From: a virus | Length of the DNA: 39,528 nt | Strand: one strand, 5' to 3' | IMG/VR virus record: IMGVR_UViG_3300046010_013081 | Span: 1 to 39,528 of that record | Part shown: piece after piece, positions 13,979 through 25,312 of the stretch | How positions within the stretch are numbered: the stretch's first letter is position 1 | Layout: the number at the start of each line of letters is the position of its first letter | Notes under the pieces: model-generated | Told to the model about the DNA's origin: nothing | Database searches by the model: none | The model's input: the letters and a program-made list of their open reading frames with translations, nothing else | Translations under genes and position numbers: made by a program

Positions 13979-14446
13979 ATGAGAAAAACTAGATTTCCAA
14001 AACCAAGAAAATGGTTCCCCAAAAACCCAGAAAAGTATGTTGGTGATGTAACTAATATCATATCAAGAAGCAGTTGGGAAACCAAATTTTTAAATTGGGC
14101 AGATAATAATCCTGCTATAATTTCATATTCATCTGAAGAAACGGTTATACCTTACATATCTATAACGGATATGAAACCACATAGATATTATCCTGATTTT
14201 AAAATTAAGGTAAAAGATGCACAAGGTAATATTAAAACCTATATTGTTGAAATTAAGCCTAATTCACAAAGAAATCCTCCTATATATAAAGGAAAGAAAA
14301 CCCAAAGATACATAAATGAATGTTCTACGTTTATGGTTAACCAATCAAAATGGAAAGCGGCAGAAAGTTTTTGTAAAGAACGTGGGTTAGGGTTCATTGT
14401 ATTAGATGAATATGATTTAGGTATAGCACAAAGGAAAACAAAATGA
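13979..14446 (+). CDS. gp4: Head completion protein gp4
   Basis: 155 residues from ATG 13979 (MRKTRFPKPRKW); an in-frame ATG at 13940 would add 13 residues. T4 gp4 is about 150. Family features: NPEKYVGDVTNIISRSSWET (T4 FPEKYVGD...YRSSWE), VIPYIS, HRYYPDFKIKVKD, YIVEIKPNSQ, then RYINECSTFMVNQSKWKAA and GLGFIVLDEYDLG. The D.....IEIKP layout belongs to the PD-(D/E)XK nuclease-like fold predicted for gp4. gp4 finishes filled heads before tail joining. It overlaps the next gene by 4 bp (ATGA) and begins the rightward late run. Confidence 0.88.
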   Translation: MRKTRFPKPRKWFPKNPEKYVGDVTNIISRSSWETKFLNWADNNPAIISYSSEETVIPYISITDMKPHRYYPDFKIKVKDAQGNIKTYIVEIKPNSQRNPPIYKGKKTQRYINECSTFMVNQSKWKAAESFCKERGLGFIVLDEYDLGIAQRKTK

Positions 14447-15186
14447 TACAGCAAGATGTTGAAAGTCCAAGTCCGGCTGCAATTAAAAAACTAAGAACAA
14501 AAAATGGGTTAACCTTACAAAAGGCGGCAACTTTAGCCGGCGTTGCGTCATCTACATTTGAGAAAATGGAGAATGGCGTTATTAAAATGTCAGGCGATAC
14601 TTGGGATAAACTGAATCGTAAGACAGCGGTAAAGCCTAATATAAAAGCCACCTTAGAAACATCAACTAATTATGAGTTGAAAGATTTGGTTTTAAAATCT
14701 AAAGCGTGGTTTAATTCTGAAGCAAAATCATTAGCAGCATCAACCACATTAAAGGTTAGCGGTAGAGCAACTGGTTCTCCTGTTCCTGGAGAAATGTATT
14801 CATTTTACTATGATGCTAAACACAAAGATACTTTACCTTACTGGGATAAATTTCCATTGGTATTTCCTTTCAGAATTATGCCTGATGGGTTTTACGGTAT
14901 TAATTTACATTACTTACATTACAAAGAACGGATTATATTATTAGACGCATTGGATGCGGTTGCTACATCCCCTAGAAAAGAAGTATCAAAAAGATTACAA
15001 ATTTCGTATTCAATATTACAGCAGGCGGCTAAAAATAAAAAATTCGAAAAATGTATTCATAGATATTTGTTTGCTCATTTGAAAACCCCGTTAAAAAAGA
15101 TACATTCAGATAAATGGATTTTAAGCGCGATGCTACCAAACGAAATGTTTGTTGGTGCGACGACTAAACAAATATGGAGTTTATAG
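14443..15186 (+). CDS. Conserved phage protein with N-terminal helix-turn-helix; virion-protein candidate
   Basis: 247 residues. Residues about 12-60 form a Cro/C1-type helix-turn-helix: AIKKLRTKNGLTLQKAATL, AGVASSTFEKMENG. The middle (about 110-165), MYSFYYDAKHKDTLPYWDKF then PLVFPFRIMPDGFYGINLHY, is a block I associate with a conserved T4-type structural or assembly protein encoded beside gp4 and gp53 in marine phages; it also has YKERIILLDALD. In T4 the neighbour of gene 4 is gene 2 (DNA end protector), so gp2 is possible by position, but I cannot confirm it by sequence. The attached DNA-binding domain would suit a protein handling DNA ends or, alternatively, an autoregulator. It overlaps gp4 by 4 bp and ends directly before the tube-type gene. 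Confidence 0.65.
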   Translation: MIQQDVESPSPAAIKKLRTKNGLTLQKAATLAGVASSTFEKMENGVIKMSGDTWDKLNRKTAVKPNIKATLETSTNYELKDLVLKSKAWFNSEAKSLAASTTLKVSGRATGSPVPGEMYSFYYDAKHKDTLPYWDKFPLVFPFRIMPDGFYGINLHYLHYKERIILLDALDAVATSPRKEVSKRLQISYSILQQAAKNKKFEKCIHRYLFAHLKTPLKKIHSDKWILSAMLPNEMFVGATTKQIWSL

Positions 15187-15780: not shown

Positions 15781-16203
15781 ATGAAAATTGATGATAATTT
15801 GGCTACTGTGTTCAATTTAGATACGAACATAATTGAAGGTGAGATTGTAGGTGAAGTAACGAAAGCGCCGTTAGTGAGAGCAGAACCGTTTGAAGCTGAG
15901 AATGATTTTGAATACGCAAGAGAAAATATAAAATCATTAATAGCACAAGGAGAAGACGCGCTTGAGTCTATAATTGACATAGCAAAATCTAGTGAAGCTC
16001 CTAGAGCGTTTGAAATTGTAGCCGGTTTATTGAAACAGCTTTCAGATATGAACCATCAGGTCATAGATTTACATGTTAAGAAAAAAGGCTTAAAGGGTAA
16101 AGTTGAAAGTGAATCTCCTAAAACTGTCACCAACAATAGTATATTTGTTGGTACAACTAGCGAGTTGAATAAAATGATTAATGATTTGACGAATAAGGGA
16201 TAG
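15781..16203 (+). CDS. gp16: Terminase small subunit gp16
   Basis: 140 residues (T4 gp16 is 164). The central helices match T4: NDFEYARENIKSLIAQGEDA then IIDIAKSSEAPRAFEIVAGL, LKQLSDMNHQVIDLHVKKK, and the tail NNSIFVGTTSELNKMIND corresponds to T4 NATVFMGSPTELMDEI. gp16 oligomers recognise concatemeric DNA and regulate the gp17 motor. In T4 it is directly followed by gp17; here it lies between the tube-type gene and gp26, and no large terminase is present in the window. ATG follows directly on the preceding stop. Confidence 0.85.
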   Translation: MKIDDNLATVFNLDTNIIEGEIVGEVTKAPLVRAEPFEAENDFEYARENIKSLIAQGEDALESIIDIAKSSEAPRAFEIVAGLLKQLSDMNHQVIDLHVKKKGLKGKVESESPKTVTNNSIFVGTTSELNKMINDLTNKG

Positions 16204-16204
16204 T

Positions 16205-16918
16205 ATGTTACCACAACCTAAAAAAAGCGCCCCAGTTTATACAACAAAAATTCCATCTTCTGGGGAAACAATTAAATTTCATCCATTTTTAGTACAGGAT
16301 GAAAAGGCATTATTGATTGCTCAAGAATCAGAAGATCTTGATGTAATGATTGATACAATTTTAGACGTAATAAGCCGTTGCGTTCTAAGCCCACTTGACA
16401 CTGATAAGTTAGCTATATTTGACATCGAATACATATTCCTTCAAATTAGAGCAAAATCGGTAGGTGAAACCGCAGAGTTAATATTTTCATGTGATGATTG
16501 TGTTACACCAACATCTAAGGTTAAAATCAGTTTCAATTTAGAAAACATCAACGTTGAGAAAAACCCTAAGCATACAAAACGAATTTCTTTATTTGATGAC
16601 GTAGGCGTTATGATGAAATACCCTGCGTACAAATCATTGAAGTTGCTGGATTCAAATTTGAAAGATACAGAAATGGAATTCGATTTGGTAATTGATAGCG
16701 TTGATTACATTTATGATAAAGAAGAAATACATCACATCTCAGATTACACTAAAGAAGAAGTTGTTGATTTCTTTAACGCCTTAACAAAAGAAAACTTCAA
16801 CAAGGTTTATGAATTTTTTGAAACCATGCCACAAATGGTTCAACGGGTAAAATACAAATGTCCTGATTGCGGTAAAGCGCATAATAAAATTATAGAAGGG
16901 ATCGAATATTTTTTTTAA
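16205..16918 (+). CDS. gp26: Baseplate hub assembly protein gp26-like (T4_baseplate family)
   Basis: 237 residues (T4 gp26 is 208), ribosome site AAGGGATAGT. N-terminal strands TTKIPSSGETIKFHPFLVQD then EKALLIAQES; IFDIEYIFLQIRAKSVGE is the usual core of T4_baseplate proteins. A putative zinc pair lies in FSCDDC (about residue 98) and CPDCGKAH (about 221). gp26 is needed for hub assembly and is positioned like a tail-assembly chaperone ahead of the tape measure. The gene ends GAA TAT TTT TTT TAA, a slippery run directly before its stop, with the next ORF in the -1 frame. Confidence 0.82.
   Translation: MLPQPKKSAPVYTTKIPSSGETIKFHPFLVQDEKALLIAQESEDLDVMIDTILDVISRCVLSPLDTDKLAIFDIEYIFLQIRAKSVGETAELIFSCDDCVTPTSKVKISFNLENINVEKNPKHTKRISLFDDVGVMMKYPAYKSLKLLDSNLKDTEMEFDLVIDSVDYIYDKEEIHHISDYTKEEVVDFFNALTKENFNKVYEFFETMPQMVQRVKYKCPDCGKAHNKIIEGIEYFF
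16909..16918 (+). promoter_or_regulatory. Candidate programmed -1 frameshift site (T_TTT_TTT before stop)
   Basis: Eight T residues (16909-16916) place two TTT codons right before the gp26 stop (16916-16918). The zero-frame phasing T TTT TTT TAA is an exact X XXY YYZ heptamer. After a -1 slip the next codons are TTA (16915-16917) and ATG (16918-16920), in frame with the next ORF. A weak 4-bp stem, TGGC-AATGA-GCCA, follows at 16919-16931. No experiment supports it here. Confidence 0.45.
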
Positions 16919-17103
16919 TGGCAATGAGCCACGATAATTTGCTGAATTATATGAAGACGAATTTTGCCCTTATTCAATATCATAAATACAGCATAGGCGA
17001 CATTGAAAGATTAATGCCATTTGAAAGGGAAATATACGTTTCGTTGTTAATTATGCATTTGAAAGAAGAAAAGGAACGAATAGAAAGGAATAAAAGAAAA
17101 TGA
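16918..17103 (+). CDS. Small hub-assembly protein (gp51-like)
   Basis: 61 residues: MAMSHDNLLNYMKTNFALI, QYHKYSIGDIERLMPFEREI, YVSLLIMHLKEEKERIE, ending in a basic helix. The pattern 'short helix, Y-H-K/H-Y-S-I/L, E.L..wER.iYv.LL..yl.eE' is the usual short ORF following gp26 in T4-type phages, and resembles the chaperone ORF preceding tape measures (T4 gp51 region, Mu-type downstream chaperone). The ATG overlaps the gp26 stop (TAATG), so it may be made by coupled reinitiation and also as a -1 frameshift fusion to gp26. It overlaps the next gene by 4 bp. Confidence 0.6.
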   Translation: MAMSHDNLLNYMKTNFALIQYHKYSIGDIERLMPFEREIYVSLLIMHLKEEKERIERNKRK

Positions 17104-19994
17104 GTAAACGGGATAAAAGTTTGACCGCATTACTGGATAAGCAGGCAAAACAGGTGTCTGATATCAAAGAAGATACTAATGAACTAAAAGAAAAAGCTGT
17201 AGAGTTAAAGGAAGAAATAAAAGTAGCCACCGGAACTGTCACAGGCTCACCTATTCAAACAGGAAGTAAAATTTTAAATGCCACTGCCGATTTACATTCA
17301 TTAGTTGATAATTCATTTGAGAATACAGATTTCGGTAAACTTTTATCTAACATCGATAAAGGCATCAACGATAAAAATAGTAATTTATTAAAATTGATGG
17401 AATCCTTAAAGGGCAAATTTTCTTCATCTTTTATTAATAATACAACAAATTCGAATTCAGTATCTGATAATACAACAAATTTAAACGATAAATTTACAAC
17501 AAATAATCAAAAATTTGAACCTCCGATTAGAAGAGAACCACCAAGTAGGTTCTTTTCTGGTATTGATGCGTTTCAGAAAAAGCTTGGTGTAAAAGATTAT
17601 TCTATGCTGAGTAAGCGTATAAGTAATGCCTTAGCATTTACAAAATACGATTTGAGCGAAAAACAAAAGCCTGAATTTGAACAGGTTATACCTGAAAAGA
17701 AAGCAAATAAAAGCGCAGTAAAAGCTGTAGAATCATCTGTACAGTTTTCTCCGTTAGCTAAACTTGCCGCCGATACAAAATCACATAAGGCTTATGTTGA
17801 TAAGGTATTAAAGGAAAATCCTAAGCTTTTGAAAAAGGGTAATGTTGAAGAAGTAAAAGGCAAACTGTTAGCTGAGTCAAAGGAACTGAGAAAACAGGCT
17901 AAAGAATATGTTGAGTTTGAAAAAGATTTAAAGGTATTAAAAGAAAACAACTTAACACAAGACAGTAAATTGATTAAGACCATCGAAACTAAGATGGAAA
18001 AAATCAAAAAGTATGTTGAAAAAACTAATCGATTAGAAATAAAAGAAGCGCCGGTAAAGGCTGAATCAGTAAAACCAGAATCAGTAAAACCAGAATCAGT
18101 AAAACCAGAATCAGTAAAACCAGAATCGGTAGACAAGGTTAAACCAGAATTTAAACCAGAATCAGTAAAACCAGAATCAGTAAAACCAGAATCAGTAAAA
18201 CCAGAATCGGTAGACAAGGTTAAACCAGAATTTAAACCAGAATCAGTAGACAAGGTTAAACCAGAATCAGTAAAACCAGAATACATAGACAAGGTTAAAC
18301 CAGAATCAGTAGACAAGGTTAAACCAGAATCAGTAAATTCATTTACATCTTTAACTGAAGCCGAGCATAAAGACAGCAACACTAAGTCTCAAGAAGAAAT
18401 CGACAATTCTAAATTCCAAGAAAACCTACTTAATCAAAATAAACAGCAGTTAGACCTATCGAGTAAACAATATAAAACCTCTGATGAACAATTAAAAGTT
18501 CAAAATAAGATGTATGAGATTTTACAGAGATTTGAAAGTAAAGGTTTTGGTGGAGGAAACAACAAAAATGATGATTCAGTATTTGATGATTTTTTAGGCG
18601 GTGAAAAAAGAGACCGAACCCCTAAACGAAATCCTACAAGAACTTCTAGAAGAAACCCAAAAGGAAATATATTAAAACGTGGAGCAGCTAATGTTGCGCG
18701 TGTAGTAGGAGGTATGGCGGTAGGTGCGGCAACAGCTGGTAAAGCTGTTCTAGAGTCCGGTAAAGCCGCTGTTGGTGCTATTGGGGCAGCTGCTAAAGGA
18801 ATACCAACTAAAGCCGTAGAGCTTGCCGAGACTGCTAAGGGTTCTGTGTCAAAGGTAGCAGGTGCAGCTAAAACTGGTGTTGCTAAAGTAGTAAAATCTG
18901 AAGCGTTAAAAGATACAGGTAAACTGATATCAGAATCTATAGCAAAACGCCTACCGAAAGCCGCATTGAAAGCCGCTGGAAAATCTATCCCAGGAATAGG
19001 TGCATTAATAGGATTAGGTGCTGCTGCTGTCTCATTAGCTGAAGGTGATAAGGTAGCCGCCGGATTAGAAGCTGTCAGTGGATTAGGTTCAGCGGCAACT
19101 GCTATTCCTGCTACAGCGGCATTAGTCGCTAAAGAAGTTTATGAAGATGTTTACGGAATTAAACCGGAAGAAGACCCAGAAGCTGGAACCAGATTAACTG
19201 AAGTCAAAAACCAAGTTTGGGAAGAGATGAAAAAGTTAACTGGCACTGAAGAACCAAAAGCTGAGGAAACACCTAAAGAAGACGCGGGTAAACTATTAGA
19301 AGGAATTAAACCGGAAGATAAACCAAATGAAACATCAGAAATGGTTGCTGGTGTTCCTGTTATTAAAGGTCAACCGTTAACAAAAGAACAAATTTCAGCA
19401 ACAGATATAGCAATAAAATTAGGTAATAAGCCATCAGTAGATGTTAAAGAAGCATATGATTTATCTAAAGGAAATAAAGGTGAGAATACAGCTAGTGTAA
19501 ACGGTCAACCGGTAAAGGCTGAACCTGCAACAAAAGATTACAATACTGAGTTTAAGAAGGTTGAGGAAGAACGAGTCAAAGCCGCAAAACAGTTATCTGA
19601 ATCATCAAATACTGAAGAAGATATAAAAATCTTTAAAGAACAATTAAGTAAGGTTGAAGATATGAAAGTTAACCTACTTGCTGAAAGGGATAATAAGCCT
19701 AAAGACCAAATTAGAAAAATGTTGGAAGATAATGAAGACCCAACGACTGCTAGATTTTATCAATTAAAACCTACTGCCGAAAAAGTTGATTCATCAAGGG
19801 AATTAATTAAAGCAAGTACAGAGTCTGAAGATGCTAGAATGGCGGCGGGTAATAACGGTGATTCTGGTACGACTATTATATCACCAACAACGATAACAAA
19901 CTCTAATCAAACTAATGTAGTAAGAAAGGATGTTAAAAATAATGATGGTTCGTTAAACCGGTTGTTTGATAGCCGATACAAATTTAATTCATAA
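17100..19994 (+). CDS. Large hub/tape-measure candidate (gp29-like position) with KPESV repeats
   Basis: 964 residues. N-terminus: coiled-coil (KDKSLTAL-type start, VSDIKEDTNELKEKAVELKE) followed by low-complexity Asn/Thr. About 319-412: tandem KPESV and DKVKPESV units. About 520-700: Ala/Gly-rich hydrophobic helices (KAVLESGKAAVGAIGAAAKG, IPGIGALIGLGAAAVSLAEG), typical of tape-measure proteins that touch or enter membranes. C-terminal half: Lys/Glu-rich helices, then NNGDSGTTIISPTTI and a conserved-looking end DVKNNDGSLNRLFDSRYK. Following gp26 and the gp51-like ORF, it holds the place of the tail-length determinator (T4 gp29, 590 residues). The tape-measure call rests on position, length and composition. 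Strong terminator immediately after. Confidence 0.65.
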   Translation: MSKRDKSLTALLDKQAKQVSDIKEDTNELKEKAVELKEEIKVATGTVTGSPIQTGSKILNATADLHSLVDNSFENTDFGKLLSNIDKGINDKNSNLLKLMESLKGKFSSSFINNTTNSNSVSDNTTNLNDKFTTNNQKFEPPIRREPPSRFFSGIDAFQKKLGVKDYSMLSKRISNALAFTKYDLSEKQKPEFEQVIPEKKANKSAVKAVESSVQFSPLAKLAADTKSHKAYVDKVLKENPKLLKKGNVEEVKGKLLAESKELRKQAKEYVEFEKDLKVLKENNLTQDSKLIKTIETKMEKIKKYVEKTNRLEIKEAPVKAESVKPESVKPESVKPESVKPESVDKVKPEFKPESVKPESVKPESVKPESVDKVKPEFKPESVDKVKPESVKPEYIDKVKPESVDKVKPESVNSFTSLTEAEHKDSNTKSQEEIDNSKFQENLLNQNKQQLDLSSKQYKTSDEQLKVQNKMYEILQRFESKGFGGGNNKNDDSVFDDFLGGEKRDRTPKRNPTRTSRRNPKGNILKRGAANVARVVGGMAVGAATAGKAVLESGKAAVGAIGAAAKGIPTKAVELAETAKGSVSKVAGAAKTGVAKVVKSEALKDTGKLISESIAKRLPKAALKAAGKSIPGIGALIGLGAAAVSLAEGDKVAAGLEAVSGLGSAATAIPATAALVAKEVYEDVYGIKPEEDPEAGTRLTEVKNQVWEEMKKLTGTEEPKAEETPKEDAGKLLEGIKPEDKPNETSEMVAGVPVIKGQPLTKEQISATDIAIKLGNKPSVDVKEAYDLSKGNKGENTASVNGQPVKAEPATKDYNTEFKKVEEERVKAAKQLSESSNTEEDIKIFKEQLSKVEDMKVNLLAERDNKPKDQIRKMLEDNEDPTTARFYQLKPTAEKVDSSRELIKASTESEDARMAAGNNGDSGTTIISPTTITNSNQTNVVRKDVKNNDGSLNRLFDSRYKFNS
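18054..18335 (+). repeat. In-frame 15-bp minisatellite (KPESV) with 24-bp variants
   Basis: Tandem units of CCAGAATCAGTAAAA (PESVK) alternate with a longer unit carrying GTAGACAAGGTTAAA (VDKVK) and a KPEF variant. A larger block of four KPESV units plus DKVKPEFKPES occurs twice. All units keep frame, so copy number can vary without breaking the protein. Confidence 0.92.
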
Positions 19995-22507: not shown

Positions 22508-22536
22508 GCTTTTTTTTATCTTTTTTTAAAAATAAT

Positions 22537-23987: not shown

Positions 23988-24233
23988 TTATTTTAAATCA
24001 AACCGGTTTCTAATTCTTTTCGCGCATTCATCCACAATAAATCCATCCGCTGTACCGTAATGTTCAGTTTCTGTTGCAGACAAACATTGACTAATACATT
24101 CTTGAATAATCAACTTGGCAAACCTATCTATTATCTCTTGCGGTATACATGGTGTAGAATCTTCTGATATATCCCAGTTTTGTTTATATTCAGTAACCGA
24201 TTGCTGTAATAATTCCAATACTTTATTATTCAT
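23988..24233 (-). CDS. Small early protein, IIQEC family
   Basis: 81 residues, MNNKVLELLQQSVTEYKQNW, with IPQEIIDRFAKLIIQECISQ and VDECAKRIRNRFDLK. The IIQEC helix and basic C-terminal helix resemble the gene at 24505-24732 (YAESIIQECCTVILQN). Similar small proteins are numerous in T4-type phages; role unknown. Overlaps the upstream gene by 4 bp. Confidence 0.62.
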   Translation of the reverse strand: MNNKVLELLQQSVTEYKQNWDISEDSTPCIPQEIIDRFAKLIIQECISQCLSATETEHYGTADGFIVDECAKRIRNRFDLK

Positions 24234-25120: not shown

Positions 25121-25312
25121 TTATTTTAAATTATTTTTGCTTAGACTGTTATAAACAATTGTCGCTTCTTTTTTAGATTCAGCAAAAGATTTTATTCCTC
25201 TAGTATCAGAGTAGCACCAAATTTCAAACTCTTTTTTAGACCAGCCATATTGACGCATTTTGTATTTTTCTAATGCTAGCGCCGCACGTTCAATTACATC
25301 ATCCTTTTCCAT
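25121..25312 (-). CDS. Hypothetical early protein
   Basis: 63 residues, MEKDDVIERAALALEKYKMR, then YGWSKKEFEIWCYSDTRGIK, SFAESKKEATIVYNSLSKN. Mostly helical and basic. Ends four bases before the -35 of the next promoter. No recognised family. Confidence 0.6.
   Translation of the reverse strand: MEKDDVIERAALALEKYKMRQYGWSKKEFEIWCYSDTRGIKSFAESKKEATIVYNSLSKNNLK

Follow-up and report, generated by a model that had tools for sequence, protein, structure and literature searches.

A conserved slippery heptamer at the 3' end of gp26 probably directs -1 frameshifting into a gp51-like extension in relatives of phage T4

The gp26 homologue encoded in the stretch of viral DNA analysed here (the window, an IMG/VR virus record of 39,528 nt taken at full length) ends in a slippery heptamer, T_TTT_TTT, and -1 ribosomal frameshifting at this site very probably yields a gp26-gp51 fusion, a reading to which we assign a probability of roughly 93%. 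The heptamer is conserved in most of the T4 relatives examined, but not in T4 itself. On the best reading of these sequences, the gene would supply tail assembly chaperones of two lengths, in the manner of G and GT of phage lambda.

The gp26 homologue (16205-16918, + strand; PF12322 T4_baseplate / phrog_150), which would be the 237-aa short form (TAC-N), has TAT TTT TTT as its final sense codons, followed by the stop codon TAA (16916-16918, +). Eight T's occupy positions 16909-16916 (T8), and the heptamer (16909-16915, +) lies inside this run, in the gp26 frame and directly before the stop. The arrangement that the sequence-only reading had described, of two TTT codons preceded by T and followed by TAA, is thus matched exactly. 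The stop shares bases with the ATG of the next ORF (TAATG), a 61-aa gp51-like frame (16918-17103, +) that is in the -1 frame relative to gp26. Re-reading of the junction bore out the earlier claim that this ORF is reached through TTA ATG: the reading after a slip would be TTT TTT TTA ATG GCA, or F-F-L-M-A. The -1 frame extension, the putative C-terminal part of the long form (TAC-NC), therefore spans 16915-17103 (+), with TTA at 16915-16917 as its first codon and the 61-aa ORF after it. The length computed for the predicted fusion, 237+1+61 = 299 aa, agrees with the approximately 299 residues proposed previously.

Judged from the window alone, a heptamer at one gene end could be luck. Counting both strands, the window holds 14 runs of at least seven T's, and our heptamer scan, which took 53 of its 83 ORFs, found one in-frame TTTTTTN in each of six ORFs, near the 3' end in gp26 alone. 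Separately, two ORFs on the - strand (23988-24233 and 25121-25312) carry an in-frame T_TTA_AAA directly before the stop, and two more T runs, of 8 and 7, lie at 22510-22527 (+), outside any listed + strand ORF.

Both reading frames at the junction belong to recognisable families. The gp26 homologue matches PF12322 at 199.8 bits, against a gathering score of 24.5, and also matches phrog_150. The 61-aa ORF matches phrog_634 (gp51; 2e-25, positions 58-117) and, in addition, the C-terminal end of phrog_150 (1e-4, positions 236-281). No Pfam tail-chaperone family matched gp26, PF12322 being the sole family above cut-off, and a sequence search with a gp26 alignment against solved structures found nothing at E up to 1. 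A chaperone fold is predicted by an AlphaFold model built from 60 gp26 sequences (mean pLDDT 90.5). Residues 1-86 of the model align with the HK97 tail assembly chaperone 2OB9 (Z 7.3 over 85 residues, 4.4 Å, rank 2), and the first 86 to 96 residues align with 3FGX (Z 7.9); the row following these two scores 4.3, and both matches have Z under 8, a level that can reflect a common arrangement. Foldseek likewise matched the model to 2OB9, weakly (E 0.92, rank 6). The modelled fold supports membership of gp26 among the chaperones, short of proving it.

Immediately downstream of the junction lies a 964-aa ORF (17100-19994, +) that is a candidate tape-measure gene by its position. It had no Pfam or PHROG match, and its residues ~318-427 gave a weak partial match to Rheinheimera phage proteins annotated 'pentapeptide'. 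In HTVC008M, a tape measure is annotated in a similar position, one extra gene further on. Upstream are a gp2-like DNA end protector (14443-15186; phrog_429 over residues 66-245), whose N-terminus carries a helix-turn-helix scoring just above the Pfam cut-off (HTH_3, residues 14-64), and the terminase small subunit gene (15781-16203; phrog_445, PF11053), which sits between the tail tube gene and gp26.

We then compared gp26 3' ends across loci gathered by IMG/VR searches and from 21 phage (isolate) records. Six loci that had no gp26 stop were dropped (L003, L036, L040, L075, L149 and L157), and 334 remained; these include near-copies, as well as isolates that are also present in IMG/VR, and we therefore also give counts by cluster. 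A heptamer was scored where an in-frame T_TTT_TTN stood at most three codons before the gp26 stop. By this measure 311 of the 334 ends carry it, spelled TTTTTTC in 228, TTTTTTT in 76, TTTTTTG in 4 and TTTTTTA in 3. At the level of clusters it is present in 210/218 (90% identity), 122/128 (70%), 55/59 (50%) and 32/35 (40%). Broken down by source, it was found in all 76 window-like loci, in all those from the three profile searches (78/78, 80/80 and 43/43), in 17 of 36 from the Ackermannviridae-like search and in 17 of the 21 isolates. The 23 ends that do not have it are those of AbTZA1, whose gp26 is T4-type, and of 22 Ackermannviridae-like sequences.

In all 320 junctions uncut by a contig end, no stop codon interrupts the -1 frame over the first 140 nt beyond the gp26 stop, and in the remaining 14 it is open up to the contig end (6-169 nt). 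AbTZA1 (L096) is among the 320, and its -1 ORF is gp25, not gp51. By comparison, 187 of 936 other long-ORF ends from the same loci are open from the site to +120, a control that took every stop-to-stop frame of 150 codons or more, some of which are not genes. The T run and the -1 phasing are thus conserved far beyond expectation, which is the test that the sequence-only reading had proposed, and its suggestion that gp26 and the next ORF are joined by a -1 shift gains support from both. Because the relatives keep the T run together with its phasing, luck is excluded as the source of the gp26 heptamer.

The T4-type phages provided a control of a different kind. This set consisted of the T4 record (L081) and L343-L360, all outside the 334, and gave 13 distinct gp26 3' ends (11 distinct among 15 complete rows, together with L359 and L360); L096 appears in both sets. 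T_TTT_TTN was found at none of these 13 ends. T4 gp51 (249 aa) consists of a PF12322 domain over residues 1-201 and an extension that matches phrog_634 (1.2e-23), whereas T4 gp26 has the domain but no extension; the genes for the two are divergent. When we built a profile of virtual fusions from 114 of the 122 representatives of heptamer-bearing 70% clusters, T4-type gp51 proteins aligned to it without gaps through the slip point (four alignments listed; domain E 4e-14 for T4 gp51 and 3e-19 for L354), and T4-type gp26 proteins, among the matches listed, stopped at profile position 240, just past the slip. Since gp51 is colinear with the fusion profile, the predicted long form exists in T4 as an ordinary gene. 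The window and T4 therefore share the same families (PF12322, phrog_150 and phrog_634) and the same two product architectures. T4 encodes each form in a gene of its own, the two being divergent and free of a slippery site. In the window a single gene is joined by a -1 ORF, so that the gp26-like domain and the extension, which lie in one frame in T4 gp51, lie in two; the 61-aa ORF is homologous to the C-terminal extension of T4 gp51. Both arrangements occur within the Straboviridae, with the slip site in Schizotequatrovirus and Ceceduovirus and separate genes in Tevenvirinae and Twarogvirinae records. As for relatives without a slippery site, which the sequence-only reading had set against frameshifting, the outcome supports a shift: the heptamer is kept in most relatives and is missing from T4-type phages, which have a separate full-length gp51, and from the Ackermannviridae-like sequences, whose -1 ORF is retained behind a weaker site and which count against the reading.

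The same phages bear on whether selection acts on bases or on residues. Phe-Phe might be kept for the sake of the protein only, with the T run arising by chance from AT-rich codon use, and it is indeed kept in 8 of the 13 T4-type gp26 ends, where there is no shift. Those phages, however, code the pair as TTC TTT in six of the eight, as TTC TTC in one and as TTT TTT in one (L347), where the preceding base is G and the sequence hence not a heptamer. Among relatives with Phe-Phe at the gp26 end, by contrast, T_TTT_TTY was scored in 118 of 119 70% clusters, and the 119th (L276) holds it inside a T9 run, as against 59 of 467 other Phe-Phe pairs in the same loci, a background again drawn from every stop-to-stop frame of 150 codons or more, some of them not genes. 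Furthermore, six sites keep the heptamer with Leu as the second codon (TTA or TTG), and so have no T_TTT_TTY; because the heptamer persists there, it is the bases rather than the residues that are kept. Conservation for the protein only is largely refuted by this codon comparison, and we give it next to no chance of being correct. The comparison of Phe-Phe pairs also rules out a chance homopolymer, contradicting the caution, raised in the sequence-only reading, that the T run might be chance in an AT-rich genome.

In the window, a Shine-Dalgarno (SD)-like AGAAGGG (16894-16900, +; anti-SD duplex -5.1 kcal/mol) is a possible frameshift stimulator. Its GG (16898-16899) precedes the slip site by 10-11 nt, counted to the first T; a spacing of ~9 nt suits an SD-type -1 stimulator, as in dnaX. 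Of the 122 cluster representatives of the relatives, 84 have an in-frame GA[G/A]-GG upstream of the slip site, always at the same spacing, and the Glu codon of this element is GAG in 54 of the 84, as against 772 of 2968 Glu codons across gp26 (p 2e-13, calculated as if clusters were independent, which is not the case). Across the representatives, the mean anti-SD duplex energy is -6.5 at the element and -1.8 in upstream windows. Sequences such as AGAGG, GAAGG or AAGGG are also seen (though uncounted) at about the same place in T4-type gp26 ends, which need no shift, and because of these similar G-rich stretches we attribute the SD-like element partly to a conserved Gly. Downstream RNA structure, assessed against shuffles in 114 of the 122 representatives, those whose sequence extended far enough, gave mean z values of -0.93 (80 nt) and -0.75 (50 nt), compared with -0.13 for the 50 nt upstream; this is a weak average signal, not a universal one, for a conserved downstream pseudoknot or hairpin.

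The same fusion could arise without a ribosomal shift if RNA polymerase slipped on the T run and added a base to some of the mRNAs. The eight T's of the window are compatible with such slippage. In most relatives the run is shorter: 228 of the 311 heptamers are TTTTTTC and thus offer six T's, with an extra preceding T in just 1 of the 311. Six T's are short for polymerase slippage. The SD-like element at its fixed spacing likewise points to the ribosome, and we consider a transcriptional origin of the fusion extremely unlikely.

We also examined whether the -1 frame could be translated separately. Start codons were counted in 116 of the 122 slip-bearing representatives (70% clusters), namely those whose sequence continues for 80 nt or more beyond the stop; the six shorter ones were left out. 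In 34 of the 116, one has to read more than 45 nt beyond the stop to meet an ATG, GTG or TTG in the -1 frame. In these 34, the conserved -1 peptide of the family, RIxLxHxxLxNYYxTNFALMQHHKYS...MPWER, has already begun before the first start codon. Going by sequence, the extension in many relatives thus appears to be reachable only by shifting. This bears directly on the alternative that gp26 and gp51 are two separate proteins, with ribosomes terminating and then reinitiating at TAATG to make gp51, and the T run being incidental. Reinitiation is conceivable in the window itself because ATG 16918 overlaps the stop, and it finds some encouragement elsewhere: in 46 of the 116 representatives the first -1 start codon precedes the stop or is no more than 15 nt from it, and of the 20 isolate records that show the arrangement, 14 give the -1 frame a CDS of its own. 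ATG 16918, however, has no SD of its own at the proper distance (+0.1 kcal/mol). Of six neighbouring starts in the window, five score -5.3 to -5.9 kcal/mol and the sixth -1.0. Reinitiation provides no start ahead of the conserved peptide in the 34 representatives above, and it leaves unexplained both a heptamer in 311 of 334 ends and the existence of T4 gp51 as a full fusion. It is therefore disfavoured, and we regard it as very unlikely.

Turning to the annotations of the isolates, L082, L084, L086, L089, L092 and L102 have a -1 CDS that begins 23-53 nt past the stop. A further six of the 20 records (L090, L091, L093, L095, L097 and L101) have no CDS in the frame of the extension, although the extension is present. 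None of the 21 phage records annotates a joined gp26 CDS.

The 22 Ackermannviridae-like sequences (L092, L093, L097 and L306-L324) keep a -1 gp51-like ORF without the heptamer. Two of these records, Bue1 and sal1, bear the family name Ackermannviridae. The junction in the 22 sequences reads GA[AG]_ATT_TTC_AT[TC]_TAA, or has CAG_ATT_TTC or CTT_TTC, a weaker T4C run, and the first -1 residues, LIFEID, are common to L092 and L097 ahead of any start codon. In a tree of 51 rows, the T4-type gp26 and T4-type gp51 N-domains each fall on one side of a branch, in a topology where long branches meet (as the program warned) and the root is unknown. Because the tree is unrooted and has long branches, the order of events is something we infer. 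Tentatively, and at somewhat less than even odds, an SD-assisted -1 shift on T_TTT_TTY may be ancestral to the T4 supergroup; the T4 lineage would then have acquired its two genes by duplication and in-frame fusion, with decay of the site, and the Ackermannviridae would have retained the shift on a non-canonical [AC]TT_TTC site where slippage takes a different route.

Taken as a frameshift signal, the site of the window would work as follows. Most ribosomes would stop at TAA 16916, yielding the 237-aa short tail assembly chaperone. A fraction would move into the -1 frame on T_TTT_TTT, probably with the aid of the SD-like AGAAGGG ~9 nt upstream, and would read F-F-L-M-A into the 61-aa ORF, giving the 299-aa long chaperone. 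The short and long forms would together load and protect the tape-measure protein during polymerisation of the tail tube, as do lambda G and GT. The site, its phase and conservation, and the homology and colinearity with T4 gp51 are read from the sequences themselves; we infer that slippage happens and how often, that the SD-like element assists it, and that the products serve as chaperones in the window's phage.

As in lambda G/GT, the window appears to combine a short chaperone with a -1 extension at its 3' end, ahead of the tape-measure position, and the N-domain of its gp26 has a predicted HK97-like chaperone fold. Unlike lambda, whose slippery site is G_GGA_AAG, the window uses T_TTT_TTT. 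Xu, Hendrix and Duda are said to have described in 2004 a tail-chaperone frameshift conserved in tailed phages, and Vladimirov et al. reportedly identified the tail assembly chaperones of T4-like phages in 2022. The principle of tail-chaperone frameshifting is thus already known, and the site in the window is a well supported further case. According to PMC10885494, which cites Vladimirov et al. 2022, some T4-like phages have one short and one longer fusion gene instead of frameshifting. Poly-T slippery sites in the TAC-N genes of T4-like phages are called known in a 2025 paper (PMC12846349, citing Vladimirov et al. 2022). The Pakpunavirus Adele, as described there, resembles the relatives studied here in having the -1 frame open in all alleles and a poly-T at the 3' end of the short form, but differs in its motif, GTTTTT, and in the groups concerned, Vandenendeviridae and Andersonviridae (PMC12846349). 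In literature searches for a gp26/gp51 frameshift, we found no published account of a fixed SD-like element with codon bias, or of the Ackermannviridae variant, either of which Vladimirov et al. 2022 may cover.

If this reading holds, it would assign a definite role to gp26 and the small gp51, that of short and long tail assembly chaperones, in many cyanophages and pelagiphages as well as in many rhizobial, Vibrio and Aeromonas phages. The usual two-gene annotation of these loci would then probably be wrong, and in 6 of the 20 isolate records it provides no CDS for the extension in its frame. Finally, these phages would offer a natural comparison, in which the same pair of proteins is made by frameshifting in most of the lineages examined and by two genes in T4.
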